Assembly: GCA_026394495.1 (NCBI GenBank) | Contig: JAPKYE010000072.1 | Span: 1 to 64,000 of the forward strand | DNA length: 64,000 bases | Source: Methanobacteriota archaeon | Lineage (GTDB): Archaea; Thermoplasmatota; E2; DHVEG-1 | Direction of reading: 5' to 3' | Shown: piece after piece, positions 7,751-44,491 of the stretch | Layout of the letters: each line of letters starts with the position of its first letter | How positions within the stretch are numbered: the stretch's first letter is position 1 | Notes under the pieces: generated by a model | Told to the model about the DNA's origin: nothing | Database searches by the model: none | Seen by the model: only the letters and a program-made list of their open reading frames with translations | Made by a program: the position numbers and the translations under genes

Positions 7751-7767
7751 AATGCTCCCATCGGGAT
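7751..7767. repeat. att copy distal to tRNA-Glu
   Basis: AATGCTCCCATCGGGAT identical to 12238-12254. Confidence 0.88.
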
Positions 7768-7961
7768 GTATACCCATTTTCTCCAGTTAAAATGTTTGAT
7801 AAAAATAAAAACAATGGGGTTATCCATCTTTCAACATCTCTCTCTTTCTTTTTTTCTTTTTTTTGGAAATATTCTTTCCAAAGGAAAACGGCTGTTGACC
7901 CCGAGAACGTAACAAATATAATACCCGAAAATGCGACCTTTCTTCATTATCCTTTCCTGAA

Positions 7962-8044
7962 GGTATCCGTATGTTGCCCCGAGGAGGGTTTTTCCCTCAC
8001 TTGTGAACGGGAAAAAGCCCGAGGAGGGGCAACAGGAGGATACC
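7962..8044 (+). other. multi-segment stem-loop upstream of rep (candidate double-strand origin or leader RNA)
   Basis: GGTATCC/GGATACC, GTTGCCCC/GGGGCAAC, symmetric GAGGA/GAGGA internal loop, GGGTTTTTCCC/GGGAAAAAgCCC, apical TCAC-TT-GTGA. Confidence 0.85.
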
Positions 8045-8081
8045 GAGGGGAACTGCCTTGTCTTATGGGAGGGCTGTTTGT

Positions 8082-9437
8082 ATGAACACCCTCCATCAGG
8101 TGAAAAGCAAATTTACTTACTCAGATTATGTTAAAATTTTAAAAGATGATGAAGAAAGTGGAAAAAAACAAATTGACTTAGGTTTAAAATTCGCTGAAGA
8201 ATACAACAATAAAAAAACTATTACTTTTAATTGTTTAGATTGCGAATGTTATATTACACCTCTATCAATAGCGAAGTTTGAGCGGTCTCAATTTTCTTAC
8301 TTTAAACTGTTTGATTACTATAATTCTCTTAAAACATGTCCACAGTGTCACAGTACAAATATTATTACTCATATTTACGAAAGCAAAATACCAAAAAAAG
8401 AAGACTATGATTTGCTTTTTAATCCTAAACAAATCTATGCTGTAGACATTGGCGATGATGTGGGTTTTCAATCTGCATGTGAACATTACGAATCTACGAT
8501 GAATGACCCTTATTTTATTGCATTACGTAACAAAAAAACAGGGCAAATAATAGGTAAACAAATTTACAAACGAGGTACATTGCAATACTATAAGCAAACA
8601 GTAAAACCAAAAACAAATATCATCAAAGACATAGGGGATATTTTACAACTAACTGGCGATTGTATTGCTGTTTTCTTTACTCTTACTTGTGACACTAAAA
8701 AATACGGTTCGCAAACAGGGGCATGGTTAGAAGCCCCTAAAGATGTTAATCGAGTGCTTACTTGGGCGAGAAAAGGTGCAACAGGTAAAAGAAAACGAGT
8801 TTATCATTCGCCAAATAAACCACAAAGAGAATTTAAAAATCAAAGACCAAAAATTGAGGCTTATTATATGATTTATGAGAATACGGTCTCCCTTTATCCT
8901 ACATTTCATGTGTTAATGATTTTCAATGTAAAAGATTTAAGTCCGTATCCTTCCGCTAGAAAATATCAACTACGAGCATTTAATGACGAAATGACCTGTG
9001 TTTATCGTCAGGGATTCACAAATATAACGGAACTGCGTTCTAAAAAATTCGCTGATATTTCTTACGCTGTGAATTATACAACTAAATATGTTTCAAAGGC
9101 ATTAAACGAAAACCATCCTAAATATGACCGTAACAAGAGCATTGGATGGATGACTACTTTAAAATGTACAGGTAAACGACTTTTTTCAATGTCAAGAAAA
9201 TGGAAAACTTGGCATGACCAACTTTATAAAAATAGCTTGGACGAACATATATATGCTAATTCAAACGATAATTGCAATAATTGGGAATTATACTGTGTGA
9301 GAATTGGGGGATTTAAAAATTTAAGCGATTTTATCGAGGATTGTATTGCTTTTAGACCACCACCTGGTAAAATAATTTTTTTATATGACAGTTCAAAACG
9401 AAAATGGGTAGAGGATTCTAAGGAGGTATACTCTTAA
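8082..9437 (+). CDS. HUH-superfamily rolling-circle replication initiator (Rep)
   Basis: Motif 1 FFTLTCD, motif 2-like PTFHVLMIF, motif 3 YAVNYTTKYVSK; N-terminal CxxC pairs; ORF track start at 8058 but ATG at 8082 (MNTLHQ) follows GGGAGG. Confidence 0.82.
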   Translation: MNTLHQVKSKFTYSDYVKILKDDEESGKKQIDLGLKFAEEYNNKKTITFNCLDCECYITPLSIAKFERSQFSYFKLFDYYNSLKTCPQCHSTNIITHIYESKIPKKEDYDLLFNPKQIYAVDIGDDVGFQSACEHYESTMNDPYFIALRNKKTGQIIGKQIYKRGTLQYYKQTVKPKTNIIKDIGDILQLTGDCIAVFFTLTCDTKKYGSQTGAWLEAPKDVNRVLTWARKGATGKRKRVYHSPNKPQREFKNQRPKIEAYYMIYENTVSLYPTFHVLMIFNVKDLSPYPSARKYQLRAFNDEMTCVYRQGFTNITELRSKKFADISYAVNYTTKYVSKALNENHPKYDRNKSIGWMTTLKCTGKRLFSMSRKWKTWHDQLYKNSLDEHIYANSNDNCNNWELYCVRIGGFKNLSDFIEDCIAFRPPPGKIIFLYDSSKRKWVEDSKEVYS

Positions 9438-9438
9438 A

Positions 9439-9573
9439 ATGTCCCATAATAAAGATGTGTATAAAATTGAATGTAGTTGCAATGGCGTTATTGATGCTAC
9501 CTTTATATTTACCAGAAGCGATTATTATGACGTTTGGTATTTAGCAAGTAATTACGCAAAGGATAAAAAATGA
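9439..9573 (+). CDS. small protein MSHNKDVYKIECSCNGVIDATFIFTRSDYYDVWYLASNYAKDKK
   Basis: Short ORF with upstream AGGAGG, overlapping the next start. Confidence 0.6.
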   Translation: MSHNKDVYKIECSCNGVIDATFIFTRSDYYDVWYLASNYAKDKK

Positions 9574-10595
9574 CTCAAAGAACTTTTGATGTTATGACAC
9601 GAAATAATTATTTAAAAGGTTGTTTTCCTCGTGTTTCTTATGCTAAAGATGCTAATATGATTAGAATAAAAGTATGTGAAAATACTCAGGTTCGTAGCAC
9701 TCGTTTATTTGTGTATGATGAGGGTTGTAATGAATGGACTCATGGTTTTTATTCTTATGACGGGAGGGGAATCATATTTTATTCACCTCGTACCCATCGT
9801 TATGAGTTCTCTGGTCCTATCGTGAATGTTTGGAGTAGGGAACGTGTGAATAAGTGTGGTGGGATGGTCTCCTCTGAGCCTGTCTTTAATGGGCTTCGAT
9901 GGGGTAGGAATCTTAAAAAAGGTATTGAAAACGAAAATAAAATATGTGATAACCTAAATACTGCTAATGTTGATAATTTAAAAATTCACCATTTAGAAAA
10001 TAGCGGTCATTTAAGTGGAGGGAGTGATATTGTCGTTTCTTTGAACCCTATTGAACCTGAAGAAAGTTCTTATGATACTGTTTTGCGCGGTGTGTGTGCT
10101 ATTGAGGTTTTAGGTATCAAAAAACGCGGTTTAACTGAGTCTACTCTGTCGTTTATGCTTCATAGATTTATAAATTTTCAGAGATGGCGAAGTGACTTAA
10201 TAAAAAATGATGTACTCCCTGTGATTGCATGGAATTATGAGGGGAAATCTTGGTTTGTTATAATGACAGATAGCGCGTTATACGATGGTTTTTACATAGG
10301 TGAGGGCGAATTAAAACATCAACAAACAAATTATCCTCTGGTTAGAAAGATACTGGAGTATAAATTAAACGTAACACAGTTATTCTATTGTATCAGATGT
10401 CATTTAAAAACTGTCAGCATAATACACACAATCGAAAAAAATAAGCCTGTATCCTATGGTCAAGGTAGCGAATATTTCTATTCTAAGGGTTACCCTTTGA
10501 AACCTGTCTATGATTATGACGTTGTTATAGATAAGATACGTAGCTATTTGTTTGAGACCTGCGGGGCTGATGAATCCTCTTATTGCAAGGATTAG
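9570..10595 (+). CDS. hypothetical protein, possible PD-(D/E)XK-like nuclease fold
   Basis: GSDIVVS ... CAIEVLGIKKRG ... VLPVIAWNYEGKSWFVI spacing resembles D-ExxxxK nuclease cores; weak. Confidence 0.4.
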   Translation: MTQRTFDVMTRNNYLKGCFPRVSYAKDANMIRIKVCENTQVRSTRLFVYDEGCNEWTHGFYSYDGRGIIFYSPRTHRYEFSGPIVNVWSRERVNKCGGMVSSEPVFNGLRWGRNLKKGIENENKICDNLNTANVDNLKIHHLENSGHLSGGSDIVVSLNPIEPEESSYDTVLRGVCAIEVLGIKKRGLTESTLSFMLHRFINFQRWRSDLIKNDVLPVIAWNYEGKSWFVIMTDSALYDGFYIGEGELKHQQTNYPLVRKILEYKLNVTQLFYCIRCHLKTVSIIHTIEKNKPVSYGQGSEYFYSKGYPLKPVYDYDVVIDKIRSYLFETCGADESSYCKD

Positions 10596-10672
10596 TTAGG
10601 GGAGGTAGGGGTATGGTTTCATATATCTAACGATATTACAATATATTTCCCTCCTGTTGGTAACACGAATGT

Positions 10673-10690
10673 CTTTTTTCGTGCTACGAA
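10673..10690. terminator. possible terminator hairpin
   Basis: ACGAA...TTCGT-type inverted repeat around a T-run downstream of the 10595 stop. Confidence 0.35.
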
Positions 10691-10910
10691 AACCTTATAT
10701 CATAAGGAGTGATTATCTGTTTTCATGGTTGCTAAGGGAAAGAGCGTTTTTTATTGATATGATTCGACCCTCTTTCCCTTTCATCGCATCTTTTTTATTG
10801 ATGGGGAAAATTTAAATATATATCCGTGTATTCAAATATAGAATCATATCAAGGTTATCGACTGCTAGACTGAGCGGTTTATAACGATAGCCTGAAAGGG
10901 TTGTCCCCCC

Positions 10911-12290
10911 GTGATTTCATCAGTCACCCTTACGGGTGATGCGATGACGGATAATGAAACAACCCAATCAGATAAATTTTATTCAAACAATAATTCTTTT
11001 AAAGTTGTTCATGCTTCTGGTATTACTTCTCAAAATCAAGAAGTGGGAGTGTGTAACCAAGAATGCGAACCTATTTTAGACAAAATAAGCCAGAATCATA
11101 TCGAACATTTAAGCCCTATTGTTGGGAAGGAAATGGTGAAACTGGATTATGACTTAAAAAAAACTTTAGATGTTGAAATATTTAGAAACCCCTATGTACT
11201 TGAACCAAAGGACTATGAGACGTTACAAGATTTTTTCACGGCACTCGAACATTGGTGGATTTTTCGATATAGAAAAAACCCCAGTACCATTAAAGACAGA
11301 ATCCGGTACGCAAAAAATATGTCGAAACATCCAGTTTATCCTATCGACTGGCTGAAGCTTAACCCGAATCAAGTAATAGCTTATCTGGAACACAGAGAAT
11401 ATCAAGATTACGGCAATACTAGAGGAAAACATCAAATACGCAATGACTGGAAAACAATAAAAACTATCGCGAAAGCATTTGGAATCGATGCTGAACTTTG
11501 GGGATATATCCCACCATGCCCACCAAAAGCCAAGGTACGAAAAATACCATCACCTGACGAAGTACATGCTATTATCCATCATAAATACTGTAAGGACAAA
11601 TACACTAAAACTTTGTATCAGTATATACTCATGCATGGTTTTTCTATTGGATGGAGACCTGCTGAGCTTGTCATCCAGAAAGTAAGCGATGTTCACTATG
11701 AAGACGGGTACTTAATCATCACTGAGACGAAGAAAGGCGACCAGATGCGACAGATTTTCCCTGAGAAACGTATTTTATCAGGGGAACGATGTAAAAGCTT
11801 CAAAAATTATATTGAGGACTGGCGACCAAAGGTTTTGAATCAATATAGCGGTGACTTTCTCTATTTACAGGCTAACGGGAGACCGTTTACGGTGAATTAT
11901 CTGAGAAAACTACTTACCCCTGAAGTTAAAAAGGTTTGGAGTAGTTTTTCTCTCTATACGATGCGTCATTGGTGTGCAATAGCTCGATTAATCCAAGGCT
12001 TCATTGATAACGGTACATGGGATAAGACTGACGTTCAAGATTGGCTAGGACATGAACGAGTAAGTACAACTGACGACTATACTAAGTATGCTAAAAAGTA
12101 CTATTTGATTGCCAAGTTTGATTGGATAAAATCCATCCTCAAATTTCACACAAAAAAATGTGAGAGGGGAAAATGGAAAAAATTCGATAAATTGGCAAAA
12201 AAGGGCTTTATTAAACCAGTTAACAGGAGAAAAAAGGAATGCTCCCATCGGGATTCGAACCCGAGTCTTCGCCTCGAAAGGGCGAAATGA
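10911..12290 (+). CDS. tyrosine recombinase / integrase overlapping tRNA-Glu
   Basis: SIGWRPAEL, TMRHW, DWLGHERVSTTDDYTKY motifs; C-terminus reads into the 3' part of tRNA-Glu; real start possibly MTDNETTQ near 10944. Confidence 0.88.
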   Translation: MISSVTLTGDAMTDNETTQSDKFYSNNNSFKVVHASGITSQNQEVGVCNQECEPILDKISQNHIEHLSPIVGKEMVKLDYDLKKTLDVEIFRNPYVLEPKDYETLQDFFTALEHWWIFRYRKNPSTIKDRIRYAKNMSKHPVYPIDWLKLNPNQVIAYLEHREYQDYGNTRGKHQIRNDWKTIKTIAKAFGIDAELWGYIPPCPPKAKVRKIPSPDEVHAIIHHKYCKDKYTKTLYQYILMHGFSIGWRPAELVIQKVSDVHYEDGYLIITETKKGDQMRQIFPEKRILSGERCKSFKNYIEDWRPKVLNQYSGDFLYLQANGRPFTVNYLRKLLTPEVKKVWSSFSLYTMRHWCAIARLIQGFIDNGTWDKTDVQDWLGHERVSTTDDYTKYAKKYYLIAKFDWIKSILKFHTKKCERGKWKKFDKLAKKGFIKPVNRRKKECSHRDSNPSLRLERAK

Positions 12291-12312
12291 TTGGCCGCTA
12301 CACTATAGGAGC
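12241..12312 (-). tRNA. tRNA-Glu(TTC)
   Basis: Cloverleaf on reverse strand: acceptor GCTCCTA/TGGGAGC, anticodon loop CTTTCGA, T arm TCGGGTTCGAATCCCGA. Confidence 0.93.
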
Positions 12313-12468
12313 AAATTAGTTTTTATTGTTCTAAGGTTAACCCAACAATACGGAATTCCTTATTAAAATTGCGCCTGGACAATCATTGAACAAAAAATCC
12401 GGTGATATTGTGTGAAATTTGTAGAAATAATGGTTGTTAAAAAATTGTTGTTGATTGAAAAGAAGAGT

Positions 12469-38336: not shown

Positions 38337-38470
38337 TTAAAAACCGTGTTAATCATTGACCGCTCATGGTATATAAAACTATCATTTTCTGAGGTTCCAT
38401 GGAAAAATAAGATTTCGTTATAACCTGTAATCTCTCATTATTATGCCATTAAACGGTTCCTAAAAATAAA

Positions 38471-38535
38471 GCGCCGTCCGCCGTATGCAAACCTTGGGTA
38501 TAGTTTATACCATCAAGAATGGTGAGAAAAAGGGA
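38471..38535 (+). repeat. left-end repeat L1 of tRNA-Asn cassette 1
   Basis: GCGCCGTCCGCCGTATGCAAACCTTGGGTATAGTTTATACCA...GAGAAAAAGGGA near-identical to 41321-41385. Confidence 0.9.
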
Positions 38536-38804
38536 CGGTTTTGATATCTTTTTCCTATTATTTAACGTAACTTATGTTTTGTACTAATGGATCCTTTACA
38601 TTCTTACAGAATTTCGAATCGATTTAAAGCCACTGGGGGAAATAATGAGCATAATTAATAGCTCGCAGAAAAAACAGCTATAATGTGCTTTAACGGTAGA
38701 TAATTAAGTGATTGAAGCCCCTTTTTACAAAAATTATAAATATAACATCCGGTGTAAAATAAATACTGAGAATAGAGACGGATAATTTACATTTAAATTC
38801 TTAT

Positions 38805-40163
38805 ATGACTAAAAGTTGGAACGGGGGAAGTAAAATTAAACTCAATAAAGCAAATGATAGTACACTCATTGGATTTTTCCCGATCTTTTGGAGTACGGGA
38901 GAAACCATTCCTTTAATAAAAATTGCTCAATCATATATGAAACAGGGTGGAAAAGCAGTATTCTTTAGTCATGGCGGTAAATATGAATATATGGCGGAAG
39001 ACATTGGTTGTGAAGTTATTTACCTAAATAGTTGGTGGAAAGATTATTTTCGTAAAGGAAAAAAATTGATAGAAAATGGGGTGAAGGCTGAAAAATTCTT
39101 TACTAATCAATTTGATGAAAAGTTTATTGAAAAATCTATCAAAGAAGAAAAGGAAGCGTTTCAAAAAACTGGTGTTAAATTAATTGTTAATACCTGGAAT
39201 TTAACCTGTAGTATTTCTACAAGGGCTCTTCACATACCTCTTGTTGTCGTCATTTCAGGAACAACCATCCCACCTTATTTTAAATCAGGTTTTGTGACGT
39301 TTCCAGATAATTATGAAAATATGTTTACGAAAATGTTCCCAGCATATATTAAAAATCGTTTTACACAATGGTTTTTATTAAATAATAAATTACTTGTACG
39401 ACGATTTAACAAATTTTCGAAAGAATATAATATTTCGTCGTTTAAATGTTTAAATGATATTATTTTAGGAGATCATAATTTTGTATGCGATGACATACAT
39501 TTTTTAGGATTGACACCAACGAAAGAATTTCCTTTAAAAAATTATATTGGCCCAATTTTTCATGGAAATATCCTAAAAGAACAACAGGAACATATAAACC
39601 AAGATATTATGAATCATTTGAAAAAACCAAGGAAATCTATTCTCTTATCTATGGGGAGTATTCCCGACAGGCATTTATTTTTAAAGGTTTTAAATGCACT
39701 TAACGAAACAGAGTACAATGTGATTGCGATATATACAAAGACGCTGAAAAAAGATGAACTACCGAAAACTGGTGAAAATATCCTTCTTCAAGAATTTGTG
39801 CCCTCAGTAACTAATCTTCTGAAACAGGTCGATTTAGCGATTATCCATGGTGGACGTGGCACTGTATACTCAGTCGCATACTCAAGCAAACCTGCGATTG
39901 GGATACCAGCGTTATATGAACAACAATACAATATTGATTGTCTTGTACGACATGGATCAGCGATTAAACTTTCAAAAAAATATTTTAACCAAAAATATTT
40001 ACTTAAAAATATCAATTATATTTTTAATCATTACTCAACATTTTATGAAAATGCTAAAATTTTAGCAACAAAACTTACTAAAGATTGCGGGGAAAAAAGA
40101 GCATCTGATAGACTTGTTCAGATAATCAATTCAAATCAAGGATTTACAAAGGTATCTGAATAA
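38805..40163 (+). CDS. UDP-glycosyltransferase / MGT-like glycosyltransferase
   Basis: SMGSIPDRHLFLKVLNAL and IIHGGRGTVYSVAYSSKPAIGIPALYEQQYNIDCLVRHG donor-site region. Confidence 0.88.
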   Translation: MTKSWNGGSKIKLNKANDSTLIGFFPIFWSTGETIPLIKIAQSYMKQGGKAVFFSHGGKYEYMAEDIGCEVIYLNSWWKDYFRKGKKLIENGVKAEKFFTNQFDEKFIEKSIKEEKEAFQKTGVKLIVNTWNLTCSISTRALHIPLVVVISGTTIPPYFKSGFVTFPDNYENMFTKMFPAYIKNRFTQWFLLNNKLLVRRFNKFSKEYNISSFKCLNDIILGDHNFVCDDIHFLGLTPTKEFPLKNYIGPIFHGNILKEQQEHINQDIMNHLKKPRKSILLSMGSIPDRHLFLKVLNALNETEYNVIAIYTKTLKKDELPKTGENILLQEFVPSVTNLLKQVDLAIIHGGRGTVYSVAYSSKPAIGIPALYEQQYNIDCLVRHGSAIKLSKKYFNQKYLLKNINYIFNHYSTFYENAKILATKLTKDCGEKRASDRLVQIINSNQGFTKVSE

Positions 40164-40189
40164 AAGGACTATCATAATTTTTCATTGAT

Positions 40190-41242
40190 TTATCTAATAA
40201 TTATAACGTCAAAAAAATGAAGAGGTGGGATATTTGCGAGAGATAAAATGTGATATAATGCACAGCTTATATATACAGAAATTGTAAAGTAAAAAAGAAA
40301 AGAAATAAAAGAATGTTTTTTTGAATGAGAAATGTTTTTTGGTTTTGATTTATAGATACCGACGCCGACGCCTCCGAGTACAATGATAATGGTACTGATG
40401 TAGTGCATAGAATATAGCAGTATAATAGGTATAATAACAAAAAGATGAATCCATATGAATATTTTTAACACTGTTTTTGTTGTATCGAGACCCGCCCATA
40501 CTGCAAAGGTTGTAGTTCCACTTTTATTATCATAATCGTAATCAAGGATGTGATTACATATTTGAAATATGCAACTAAAGATTCCCGCAGAAATTGCAAC
40601 TAACAAAATGGTATTATTTATCTGACCGGTAAATAATGCTCCCCAAAGAATGATGAGAAAAAATCCAAAGAAATGCCAGACTATATCTATAATAGGCCGT
40701 CCTTTTAACCGCAATGGTGGCGCTGAATACACCCATCCCATAAATAACAGGAGAATGCAAACAATGATTATTGTAATATCTTGATAAATAATACAAAAAA
40801 TTATTGGGATGGCGAGAAAAACTAAATTTAATATAATTTCGTTGATTTTCGAGATTTCTCCTAAGGCGAGAGCGTTAACGTTTCTCCTCCTCGGATTATT
40901 TTTATCTGATTCAATATCGTAATAATTATTTATAGCAAACGTAAATGATATGCTAAAAAATGTCGATATTGTAAATATTAATAATGAGACAAAATATTTT
41001 GTTATTGATAGGATGGATATTCCCAATATAAACCCCAATAAAGATGTTGAAAACCAATAAGCAACATCTTTAATTCTAATTATCTCTGTAAGGAAAATAG
41101 ATATTTTGTTTTTCTTCGGAATGGCTTTATTCAGCATATTTACATCGTTCCAAATGAAAATTGAATACTTGTATAAAAGATAAGCGTTCTTTATCTTATT
41201 ATTTTTTATGCTTCGGTTATAAAGAAACAATGAGATAAACAC
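40190..41242 (-). CDS. UbiA-family prenyltransferase
   Basis: NNYYDIESDKNNPRRRNVNAL and DYDYDNKSGTTTFAVWAG, multiple TM helices. Confidence 0.9.
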   Translation of the reverse strand: MFISLFLYNRSIKNNKIKNAYLLYKYSIFIWNDVNMLNKAIPKKNKISIFLTEIIRIKDVAYWFSTSLLGFILGISILSITKYFVSLLIFTISTFFSISFTFAINNYYDIESDKNNPRRRNVNALALGEISKINEIILNLVFLAIPIIFCIIYQDITIIIVCILLLFMGWVYSAPPLRLKGRPIIDIVWHFFGFFLIILWGALFTGQINNTILLVAISAGIFSCIFQICNHILDYDYDNKSGTTTFAVWAGLDTTKTVLKIFIWIHLFVIIPIILLYSMHYISTIIIVLGGVGVGIYKSKPKNISHSKKHSFISFLFYFTISVYISCALYHILSLANIPPLHFFDVIIIR

Positions 41243-41333
41243 GAAAAATCGGCGTTTACTTCAGAGTTCGGGTCCGTCTTTATAAAAAATACTGTTTAAC
41301 AGAAGAAAAAGAGTGTTGGAGCGCCGTCCGCCG
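41231..41333 (+). repeat. right-end repeat R1 of cassette 1 plus core
   Basis: TGAGATAAACACGAAAAATCGGCGTTTAC...GTTTAACAGAAGAAAAAG...GCCGTCCGCCG near-identical to 42599-42701. Confidence 0.9.
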
Positions 41334-41385
41334 TATGCAAACTTAGGGTATAGTTTATACCACCAAAAATAGGGAGAAAAAGGGA
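41321..41385 (+). repeat. left-end repeat L2 of cassette 2
   Basis: Near-identical to 38471-38535. Confidence 0.9.
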
Positions 41386-42690
41386 ATCATATTTGAGGAA
41401 CCGTTTTGGTAGTACAATGTATAGCACCACCTTGTTTGATTATCGAATTACAATTTATACCCCGCATCTCATATTCAGGCATTAATTGTTGATAAATAGA
41501 AATCGCTTCAGCGTCTTCAACAGTATTATATTGCGGGATGAGAACGACTTTTTTATATGTTCCATTTATTATTAATGAGTTAGCATACGTCCAGACTGTT
41601 TGTCTATTTGAATTAGGATCTCGCAACATAGGAATTCTGACAACGTTGTAACCATGTTCTATAAATATTTTAGAATTATTTTCTAATATGTTGTAATTTA
41701 TATCCTTTTGATCCTTGTATTGACCAACAAGAACCGTTTTATCATCCAGGAATTTTGCAAACATATCAAGGTGCCCCGATCCATCATTTATTTGCGATTC
41801 TAACACAATAAGTTCATCTAATCCTAAGGATTTTTTCAAATTATCTATAATTTTTTCTTTTGAATGATAGGGATTATCTTGAAAAATTCTATCAGTTGCA
41901 AAACCGACACCATGCCCATCAGTCATATAATTTCCACCTTGGATGGAAACAACAAAATTCGTATCAAACCTATAATCAATATGGTATCGAATGCCATAGA
42001 ATGTTGGAAAAAAATTATCTAGAAACCTCCAGAGTCCATAGATATCGTATTTAAAGTCCACAATTGAGAGATGGTTATCCTCTTCGATAAAAAACGAGCC
42101 GTAGTCAACAATCCAGATTGAATCTGTTGGTATCAACGTAAATGTAATATTTGTAAGAGGAACATTATTTGCCCGTAATTCTGATAAGACATGATTTTTA
42201 ATTATTTGATTATTTACAACGATGTTTACTGAAGTAGAATTCTCTGTCTCCTTTGTAATATTGATAAAATAAGATTCAACGATTCTATCTAACGATTTCC
42301 ACCATTTAGGCCAAGTAAGGATTAATTCTTTTACAGATTCAAACTCAGCAACAGAACGTATATTCTGAGATATATAAGAAGATGAAGGGTGTGGGGGATT
42401 GATCGTTGAAATACAATTAACAGAAGGGGGCGCAAGAATAAATACAACTGTTAATAATCCAATTATTGTCCCAAACTTATTCATAATCACACCCAATAAT
42501 ATATAGTTAGTTATATTTTAAATTTCTTGTGGCTGTTGAAAAATTTTTGGGTTGATGGATTAAGGGATCTGAACATCATTTTATTTATAAAATACTGATG
42601 AGATAAATACGAAAAATCGGCGTTTACCTCAGAGTTCGAGTCCGTCTTTATAAAAAATATTGTTTAACAGAAGAAAAAAAGGTCCAAGAC
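41323..42690. mobile_element. candidate cargo cassette 2 (secreted agmatine deiminase-like)
   Basis: Bounded by cores at 41323 and 42691 and shared L/R repeats. Confidence 0.7.
41387..42496 (-). CDS. secreted agmatine deiminase / PAD_porph-like protein
   Basis: Signal peptide; IWVDYG-like IWIVDYGSFF, GSGHLDMFAKF, GGAIHCTTKTVP with terminal catalytic Cys. Confidence 0.85.
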   Translation of the reverse strand: MGVIMNKFGTIIGLLTVVFILAPPSVNCISTINPPHPSSSYISQNIRSVAEFESVKELILTWPKWWKSLDRIVESYFINITKETENSTSVNIVVNNQIIKNHVLSELRANNVPLTNITFTLIPTDSIWIVDYGSFFIEEDNHLSIVDFKYDIYGLWRFLDNFFPTFYGIRYHIDYRFDTNFVVSIQGGNYMTDGHGVGFATDRIFQDNPYHSKEKIIDNLKKSLGLDELIVLESQINDGSGHLDMFAKFLDDKTVLVGQYKDQKDINYNILENNSKIFIEHGYNVVRIPMLRDPNSNRQTVWTYANSLIINGTYKKVVLIPQYNTVEDAEAISIYQQLMPEYEMRGINCNSIIKQGGAIHCTTKTVPQI

Positions 42691-42701
42691 GCCGTCCGCC
42701 G
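42599..42701 (+). repeat. right-end repeat R2 plus tRNA-derived core
   Basis: Near-identical to 41231-41333. Confidence 0.9.
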
Positions 42702-42762
42702 GACTCGAACCAGCGACCGTTCGGTTAACAGCCGAATGCTCTACCAACTGAGCTAGGACGGC
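42691..42762 (-). tRNA. tRNA-Asn(GTT)
   Basis: Reverse strand GCCGTCCTAGCTCAGTTGGTAGAGC...CTGTTAA anticodon loop...GGTTCGAGTCC GGCGGACGGC. Confidence 0.95.
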
Positions 42763-42831
42763 AAACACAAGCTCTTAGAAGAGATGTATGCAGCACAAGA
42801 CAACAGAGTTTTATATTAAAAGATTACCTTT

Positions 42832-43374
42832 TTAGAATCCCATTGATCCACTGGTCTTTATTTTTTTGATTTCTCGTTCAATATATCGATACACCTTGAA
42901 ATGTTTACTACCTGAAAGCATCATATCAATCGCTTTTTTTGTGACATCCATAAATTCAAGATCTGAGATAATCCCAACGGTATGTCCATAAATAGAAATA
43001 TGTGCGCCAGTGAGCCGTTCCATCACTTGTTTTGTTTTTCCATCTCGTCCAATGATCCTGCTTTTCAACCGAGAAACATGATTCTCTTTTTTTCCTACAT
43101 AATCATAAATATCAAAAAGGAAAAACTCAATTTCTTCATCAAAGATTTTCAGGGCATGTTCAGGGGAAAAACCGCGTCCTATCGCACGAATGACATCTTC
43201 GGCTTTCAAACCAAGCACTGGATCAGTTACTTCCCGGTCATCAAGAGAAATCTCACCTTCCTCAGAATCTATCTCAAGTTTCACAGATGATATCTGTTCG
43301 ATCTTTTGTTTTGTTTCACCGTTTGTACCGATAAGGACACCAATGCGTTCTTTAGGAATTCGTAAATATCTCAT
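42832..43374 (-). CDS. KH-domain RNA-binding protein (archaeal Pno1/Dim2-like)
   Basis: RIPKERIGVLIGTNGETKQKIEQ and SRIIGRDGKTKQVMERLTGAHISIYG. Confidence 0.93.
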   Translation of the reverse strand: MRYLRIPKERIGVLIGTNGETKQKIEQISSVKLEIDSEEGEISLDDREVTDPVLGLKAEDVIRAIGRGFSPEHALKIFDEEIEFFLFDIYDYVGKKENHVSRLKSRIIGRDGKTKQVMERLTGAHISIYGHTVGIISDLEFMDVTKKAIDMMLSGSKHFKVYRYIEREIKKIKTSGSMGF

Positions 43375-43380
43375 AATTAC

Positions 43381-44199
43381 TCACGTTTTTCTTACAATAT
43401 TTTCATAAATTTGTTTTTCATCTCCATGGATATCAAAACGTTCGAAGAAACTAACGATATTGTGTATATCCCGTCGGAGAAACTCTGGTGCTTGCGGATG
43501 TCCAAGCAATACTCCTTGAGCAAGATCAATAATATATGGTTTTTCTTCGTACATGAGGACGTTATAGGCGCTAAGATCAGCATGGATAAGCTTTGCTTTC
43601 GAATACATCTTAGAAATATACGTAAGTAATGTCGCATACACCTTTTTAGGGTTTTTAAGCTCAGTATCTTTGAGCATCGGCGCTGGTTGACCAGCACTTC
43701 CTATATAATCCATAATTAATATATGATTGAGTCGTTTCAACGGATGTGGGGCACGTACGCGTGCTTGATGCAGTCGCTCCAGATTTTTGTATTCTTTACG
43801 AGCCCATTCATACACAATCTGCTGGCGGTTTTTATTCGCTGATTTGAAACGTGGGTCACCCTCAATATATTTCCAGATGTGTTTAAACGTCATGTTTGAT
43901 GTTCGATAAATCTTCAATGCGACAAAGGTTTTTTCTGGGGTGACAGCACGAAACACATTCGCTTCTTTTCCAGTAGAAATAGGAAAATCAACAATATCAA
44001 TAACATGGTTAGACATTAGTCTTCCAAGATCAAGCAGTGTCCGTTTATCAAAAACCTCATCCATGGTTTTACGGTCAAGACCGATATGATCGTAAAGCAC
44101 CCGGGTTTGATGATCAAGTTTTTTTAACCATTTATCGTTGAGAAAACCCTCAGAAGACATCAATCGCCTCAGGTAATAATTTTCTCCTGCTGAGAGCAC
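43381..44199 (-). CDS. RIO1-type serine protein kinase
   Basis: STGKEANVFRA, VALKIYRTS, LIHADLSAYNVL, YIIDLAQGV. Confidence 0.95.
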   Translation of the reverse strand: MLSAGENYYLRRLMSSEGFLNDKWLKKLDHQTRVLYDHIGLDRKTMDEVFDKRTLLDLGRLMSNHVIDIVDFPISTGKEANVFRAVTPEKTFVALKIYRTSNMTFKHIWKYIEGDPRFKSANKNRQQIVYEWARKEYKNLERLHQARVRAPHPLKRLNHILIMDYIGSAGQPAPMLKDTELKNPKKVYATLLTYISKMYSKAKLIHADLSAYNVLMYEEKPYIIDLAQGVLLGHPQAPEFLRRDIHNIVSFFERFDIHGDEKQIYENIVRKT

Positions 44200-44491
44200 T
44201 CGCTTGGGTTCTTTTATATCGGAATACGATATCTGATTTTTCGTTCTGGATATCCCATGGTTTAATAATAAGCAAGTCTCCTGCTCGGACTCGTTGTTTG
44301 CGTTTCATTTTTCCAGGTATTCTCGCCATGCGTGATTTTCCGTCTTCGCAGATGACTGTCATGCGTGATCCACCAGAGAGTCTGTCTGCTATCGCGAACA
44401 TTTCGTGTTGGTTTCGTTTTGGTAATGGTAGTCGGAAATATTCCTCTTCACCAGCTGGTTGATCTGATTCTCTTTCATACACAGAAATCAC
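44150..44491 (-). CDS. translation initiation factor aIF1A
   Basis: LPLPKRNQHEMFAIADRLSGGSRMTVICEDGKSRMARIPGKMKRKQRVRAGDLLIIKPWDIQ. Confidence 0.95.
   Translation of the reverse strand: MISVYERESDQPAGEEEYFRLPLPKRNQHEMFAIADRLSGGSRMTVICEDGKSRMARIPGKMKRKQRVRAGDLLIIKPWDIQNEKSDIVFRYKRTQASALSRRKLLPEAIDVF

Follow-up and report, generated by a model that had tools for sequence, protein, structure and literature searches.

The window analysed here, 64,000 nucleotides long (positions 1 to 64,000, forward strand, of contig JAPKYE010000072.1, assembly GCA_026394495.1), belongs to a 2.2-Mb MAG that is 93% complete and comes from an uncultured Thermoplasmata archaeon, possibly of the MBG-D/DHVEG-1 group. 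On its minus strand lies a tRNA-Asn (gtt) gene (42688..42763; ARAGORN), which serves as the attachment gene for a tandem array of two cargo units. In the tRNA direction, the order is tRNA-Asn/core, right end R2, an agmatine-deiminase-like gene, left end L2, core, right end R1, genes for a UbiA-family protein and a glycosyltransferase, left end L1, and core. The 12-bp core (CGGCGGACGGCG in the minus-strand reading) is the 3' end of the tRNA gene (42690..42701), and it recurs at 41322..41333 and 38472..38483, all three copies being identical and on the minus strand.

Unit 1 is made up of R2 (42598..42689), which contains the box TTTTTTTCTTCTGTTAAAC, a PAD_porph/agmatine-deiminase-like gene with an intact frame and a putative signal sequence (41387..42496), and L2 (41334..41385), all on the minus strand. 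Unit 2 comprises R1 (41230..41321), a gene for a UbiA-family prenyltransferase (40190..41242) and L1 (38484..38535), also on the minus strand, together with a plus-strand glycosyltransferase gene (Glyco_tran_28_C/UDPGT; 38805..40163). These cargo assignments, which are family-model matches, agree with those made in an earlier note on this DNA. Within the family, the nearest relatives of the PAD protein are 49-52% identical and lie at three loci, with neither a tRNA gene nor an R box there; no relative was found in the wider contig database.

On the 5' side of the tRNA gene, a minus-strand block (42832..44491) of a KH gene, a RIO kinase gene and an ORF of 113 aa forms a host anchor that is kept beside tRNA-Asn in relatives. 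Past the last core is a minus-strand flank that we term B (38432..38471), which resembles the sequence directly behind tRNA-Asn in four related genomes (G040, G027, G033 and G036); it may have stood behind the tRNA gene from the start, as the empty site would, or it may terminate a unit inserted earlier. B was rejected as a proven empty site: it is also the arm beside two integrases described below (int147 and int148), and one unit of G040 apparently spans from B to an L end.

Common ends and the absence of an integrase gene

The two left ends (38470-38535 and 41320-41385) are 91% identical over 66 bp (E 2.4e-20 in the whole genome) and the two right ends (41217-41313 and 42585-42681) are 90% identical over 97 bp, with an E value of 5.4e-34 when the query takes in the core. 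Similarity is lost sharply at about 65 bp from the core for L and at 90-105 bp for R. A degenerate core pattern has three matches in the 2.2-Mb assembly, all at this locus, and the reversed control pattern has one. The earlier description of the locus as a core in three copies with matching ends around unrelated cargo is thus confirmed, the ends being about 90% identical. The palindrome GGTATA-GTT-TATACC that it singled out is present in this genome but is particular to it, since relatives have roughly TAAGTTGAACTTTAAGTT in its place.

No integrase was found in either tRNA-Asn unit, by a Pfam search of the unit proteins and by a check for integrase fossils, and no integrase coding is recognizable in these units beyond the short R box; the claim that the units carry no recombinase gene is borne out.

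Several other features of the same genome were noted. A stretch close to AACCGTGTTAATNNTTGACCG recurs at 38341-38385 in the window and in two further loci (near 10600 in L060 and near 5330 in L069); in the window and L060 it is followed by a TATA-like run, and it looks like a common promoter or regulator site. The genome also has a diverged second tRNA-Asn (gtt) near a contig end (L087:8359-8433, contig C50) and, on contig C10, a lone Asn-type L end with a decayed core (L254:9971-10009), possibly the relic of a third unit.

Distribution of the ends among relatives

The comparison set consisted of 47 genomes of the family, all MAGs, from 24 genera. Gene content 5' of tRNA-Asn is conserved where seen, the block of KH, RIO and 113-aa ORF recurring at about 15 or more loci, whereas the 3' side varies between genera. 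The 3'-side genes of the window were not found at the relatives' tRNA-Asn loci, apart from a weak UbiA match in G040, so that the alternative of fixed ancestral neighbours raised in the earlier note did not hold; relatives have, among others, largely secreted and repeat proteins in this position, and an ATP-grasp plus AstE/AspA pair in G018.

When L, R and core were searched among the relatives, other cargo between similar ends was found in other genera, as the earlier note had anticipated. R adjoins tRNA-Asn or its core in G041, G043, G038, G037, G044, G012, G016, G031, G032, G034, G035, G036 and G046, and L adjoins core copies in G045, G037, G046, G031, G032 and G017. The R end without integrase is found in several genera, with similar extent and distance from the core. 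R was rejected as the ancestral flank of tRNA-Asn, given that many relatives differ there and that B-type sequence stands behind the last core in the window. Fourteen cargo units of 1.4-6.5 kb could be delimited (10 Asn-type, 4 Glu-type), and none of the 14 contains an intact integrase gene; an integrase C-terminal fossil is kept at one R end (G045), and decayed cores bound three of the units (one in G044, two in G040). Unit order is uncertain in four genomes because of scaffold gaps at repeats: G032 is a scaffold with 100-N gaps, several of them at or close to cassette repeats (L081, L149, L163 and L164), and similar gaps occur in G013, G035 and G014.

Cassettes are also present at tRNA-Glu. 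G031, G032 and G014 have tandem copies of an R-type box behind tRNA-Glu cores, and the L and R ends of this type carry a common motif of their own, about GGGATTTRTACCC. The model of the Asn-type L end also matches the inner R in G031, and the Asn-type L and R ends may both carry one kind of arm site. In G031, a secreted-type protein of an Asn cassette (L151:3477-5081) is 67% identical over 529 aa to one of a Glu cassette (L258:1613-3205), indicating cargo common to both sites. The arrangement is real and recurrent in relatives.

Integrases at tRNA genes

The window contains a second element, at tRNA-Glu, of 4.49 kb (7753..12252, minus strand), bounded by exact copies of CCCGATGGGAGCA at 7753 and 12240. 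Unlike the two tRNA-Asn units, it encodes its own tyrosine integrase (10911..12290, plus strand), whose gene, at its end, crosses an R-type box and continues antisense to the tRNA; it is an integrase-bearing relative of the cassettes. Two further ORFs of unknown family lie in this region (8058-9437 and 9570-10595, within 7753-12313). The former was considered as a replication protein and rejected on finding no match in Pfam, PHROGs, NCBIfam or PDB sequences; by eye, we would guess at a rolling-circle type.

Of the 47 genomes, 30 have homologues of the window integrase. Most of these end at the 3' end of a tRNA gene, the tRNAs used being those for Glu, Arg, Val, Pro, Met, Ile, Gln and Asn. The genome to which the window belongs has four further integrases of this family, on contigs C44, C21, C109 and C120 (L390, L392, L393 and L395), which end at tRNA-Arg, -Pro, -Arg and -Val, respectively; none was found at tRNA-Asn in the stretches examined of this 93%-complete assembly. 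Elsewhere, G046 has an integrase of this family (L068:10540-11841) directly adjoining tRNA-Asn. The array of G037 joins a cargo cassette to an Asn-core integrase gene in the order tRNA-core-R-cargo-L-core-R'-int, as accretion would give. Integrase C-terminal fossils abut tRNA-Asn in G045 and G002 and, weakly, in G019. G011 and G036 carry integrases of a second type, combining Asn cores with B arms.

The arms of all these Asn-core integrases (G046, G037, G011 and G036) are R' or B, not the R and L of the cassettes, and the tyrosine recombinase flanked by the same ends that the earlier note had proposed to look for did not come to light as any Asn-core integrase of the 47 genomes. Two second-type integrases (L147:75-1403 and L148:3165-4449; 65% mutual identity) adjoin the tRNA-Asn core in inverted orientation; the core is in part a palindrome and might allow insertion both ways round. 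These two, int147 and int148, were rejected as the cassette recombinase: the Asn core matches, but their arms differ from those of the cassettes and the core is inverted relative to the integrase gene.

Proposed mode of insertion and comparison with known systems

We favor, as the somewhat more probable account of these sequences, that the two units are integrase-less, CIME-like cargo cassettes inserted site-specifically with a helper integrase. They would have entered the tRNA-Asn 3' end one after another by site-specific recombination. Each unit reads core-R-cargo-L in the tRNA direction, so its circular form would offer L-core-R as attP, and every insertion would leave an intact tRNA with one extra core behind it (tRNA-core-R...L-core). 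R lies at the position that the 3' end of the integrase gene takes in this lineage's integrase elements, a short box being common to both, and L carries a conserved arm. The cassettes may derive from tRNA-targeting integrase elements that lost the integrase gene, kept both att arms and carried host-type genes, with integrase supplied by a helper, either in trans or from a neighbor in the same array. We infer excision, the circular form, the identity of the helper and present activity; presumably action is in trans and one recombinase serves all units, as the earlier note proposed. Its central claim, serial site-specific insertion of common-ended units at the tRNA, is supported by the identical cores, the sharp-edged ends and the R/L ends with other cargo in several genera, as well as by the related integrase elements at the same core and the tRNA-Glu integrase that ends in an R-type box. 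What speaks against a helper integrase is that the Asn-core integrases recovered have R' or B arms and that the stretches examined of this assembly show none at tRNA-Asn.

A possible but less convincing account is that complete integrase elements were inserted serially and then lost the integrase and other genes by deletion in place, leaving an inert remnant kept for its useful genes. The C-terminal remnants of integrases next to tRNA-Asn (G045, G002 and, weakly, G019) point this way, in that at least some units lost the integrase after or during their history in place, as do the decayed cores in G040 and G044. The window units, however, have no recognizable integrase coding past the short box, their cores are intact, and several genera have R stopping about equally far from the core, for which independent deletions are hard to invoke. 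An integrase-less R is common to these genera, the cores are intact and the cargo varies, which suggests loss of the integrase before the cassettes spread, with integrase coming from elsewhere.

Insertion by a helper integrase also has to be weighed against two accounts in which the recurring ends arise otherwise. Homologous recombination between common ends at a tRNA hotspot might swap cargo, with no integrase needed after the first insertion. L ends are 86-93% identical within a genome and have a mean identity of 58% (at most 69%) between genomes, a pattern that local spread and gene conversion would explain equally well; since the extra tRNA core per unit and the growth of tandem arrays would be left unexplained, we regard this as very unlikely. 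That a generic intergenic repeat or tRNA terminator motif flanks host genes by chance is more improbable still. The R box does have a T-run at which transcription of the tRNA could terminate, and the box pattern also matches in some other contexts, but strong L/R matches, many of them at tRNA genes, lie at att-type core copies or unit junctions, which also disposes of the suggestion in the earlier note of a repeat unlinked to tRNA genes. The copying extends to the core, and the sequence following tRNA-Asn is quite unlike in many relatives. This reading is already largely refuted.

Helper-driven insertion of cassettes would be a specific mechanism, open to testing, through which uncultured Thermoplasmata could swap secreted and surface enzymes. 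The analysis offers an L-core-R stretch of roughly 170 bp as a candidate attP, names candidate helper integrases and points to the tRNA sites worth monitoring. The data suggest that arrays break MAG assemblies at repeats, and they may therefore be undercounted.

Integrons, including those of archaea (PMC9668308), likewise line up small cargo units that have recombination sites in common. The cassettes differ in using tRNA 3' ends, flanked by double arms, as their sites, and the label integron-like, applied in the earlier note, does not stand in the strict sense: the RYYYAAC/GTTRRRY pair of an attC-type site is absent, the ends fold no better than shuffles, and the units contain no IntI or other integrase; the window integrase at tRNA-Glu scores 16.9 bits against an integron-model cut-off of 265. 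A looser analogy, which we put forward tentatively and think doubtful, would be an archaeal gene-cassette system on tRNA att sites, with short, standard-armed integrase-less cassettes, largely of secreted and surface-protein genes, that resident integrases, acting in trans, would move and stack behind several tRNAs family-wide. A casposon was rejected, since the Pfam search of the unit proteins gave no Cas1. As to phage satellites, the cargo has no PHROG matches of note, and the viral contigs gave one remote integrase match and no attP-type pattern. Tycheposons, marine bacterial cargo elements that target tRNA genes and are tied to tyrosine recombinases, are similar by description.

Archaeal tRNA-integrated elements, including cryptic ones, share with the cassettes tRNA 3'-end cores, tyrosine integrases and tandem insertion, but those described in the excerpts cited carry an integrase or casposase (PMC8371274; PMC6563490). 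No description of integrase-less archaeal cargo arrays with standard ends was found in excerpts of the open PMC literature. Among bacteria, the ssrA islands of Dehalococcoides are tandem, with varied cargo between repeats of an RNA-gene 3' end; some have no integration module, and CIME-like accretion is discussed by the authors (excerpts of PMC3146451). They differ from the cassettes in being bacterial, in their serine recombinase (CcrB type) and in their tmRNA target.

The closest likeness is to the CIMEs (cis-mobilizable elements) of streptococci, which lack integration genes, retain both att sites and share one insertion site with an integrase-bearing element next to them in tandem (reviewed in PMC5704250). 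Both tRNA-Asn units likewise have no integrase gene inside and keep both att ends around their cargo; tandem accretion is common to the two systems, and the G037 array has this very order. As for a related integrase-bearing element, the Asn-core integrases have R' or B arms, and a box of the R type stands at the tRNA-Glu integrase. By description, CIMEs derive from conjugative or mobilizable elements (PMC5704250), whereas the cassettes are only 1.4-6.5 kb long and no transfer genes were seen in them. The cassettes are thus CIME-like by anatomy and may work like CIME-type units at archaeal tRNA sites. If so, CIME-type accretion extends to archaea, with units of just this small size, and what is new would be an archaeal variant of an already known process, with a candidate helper mechanism.
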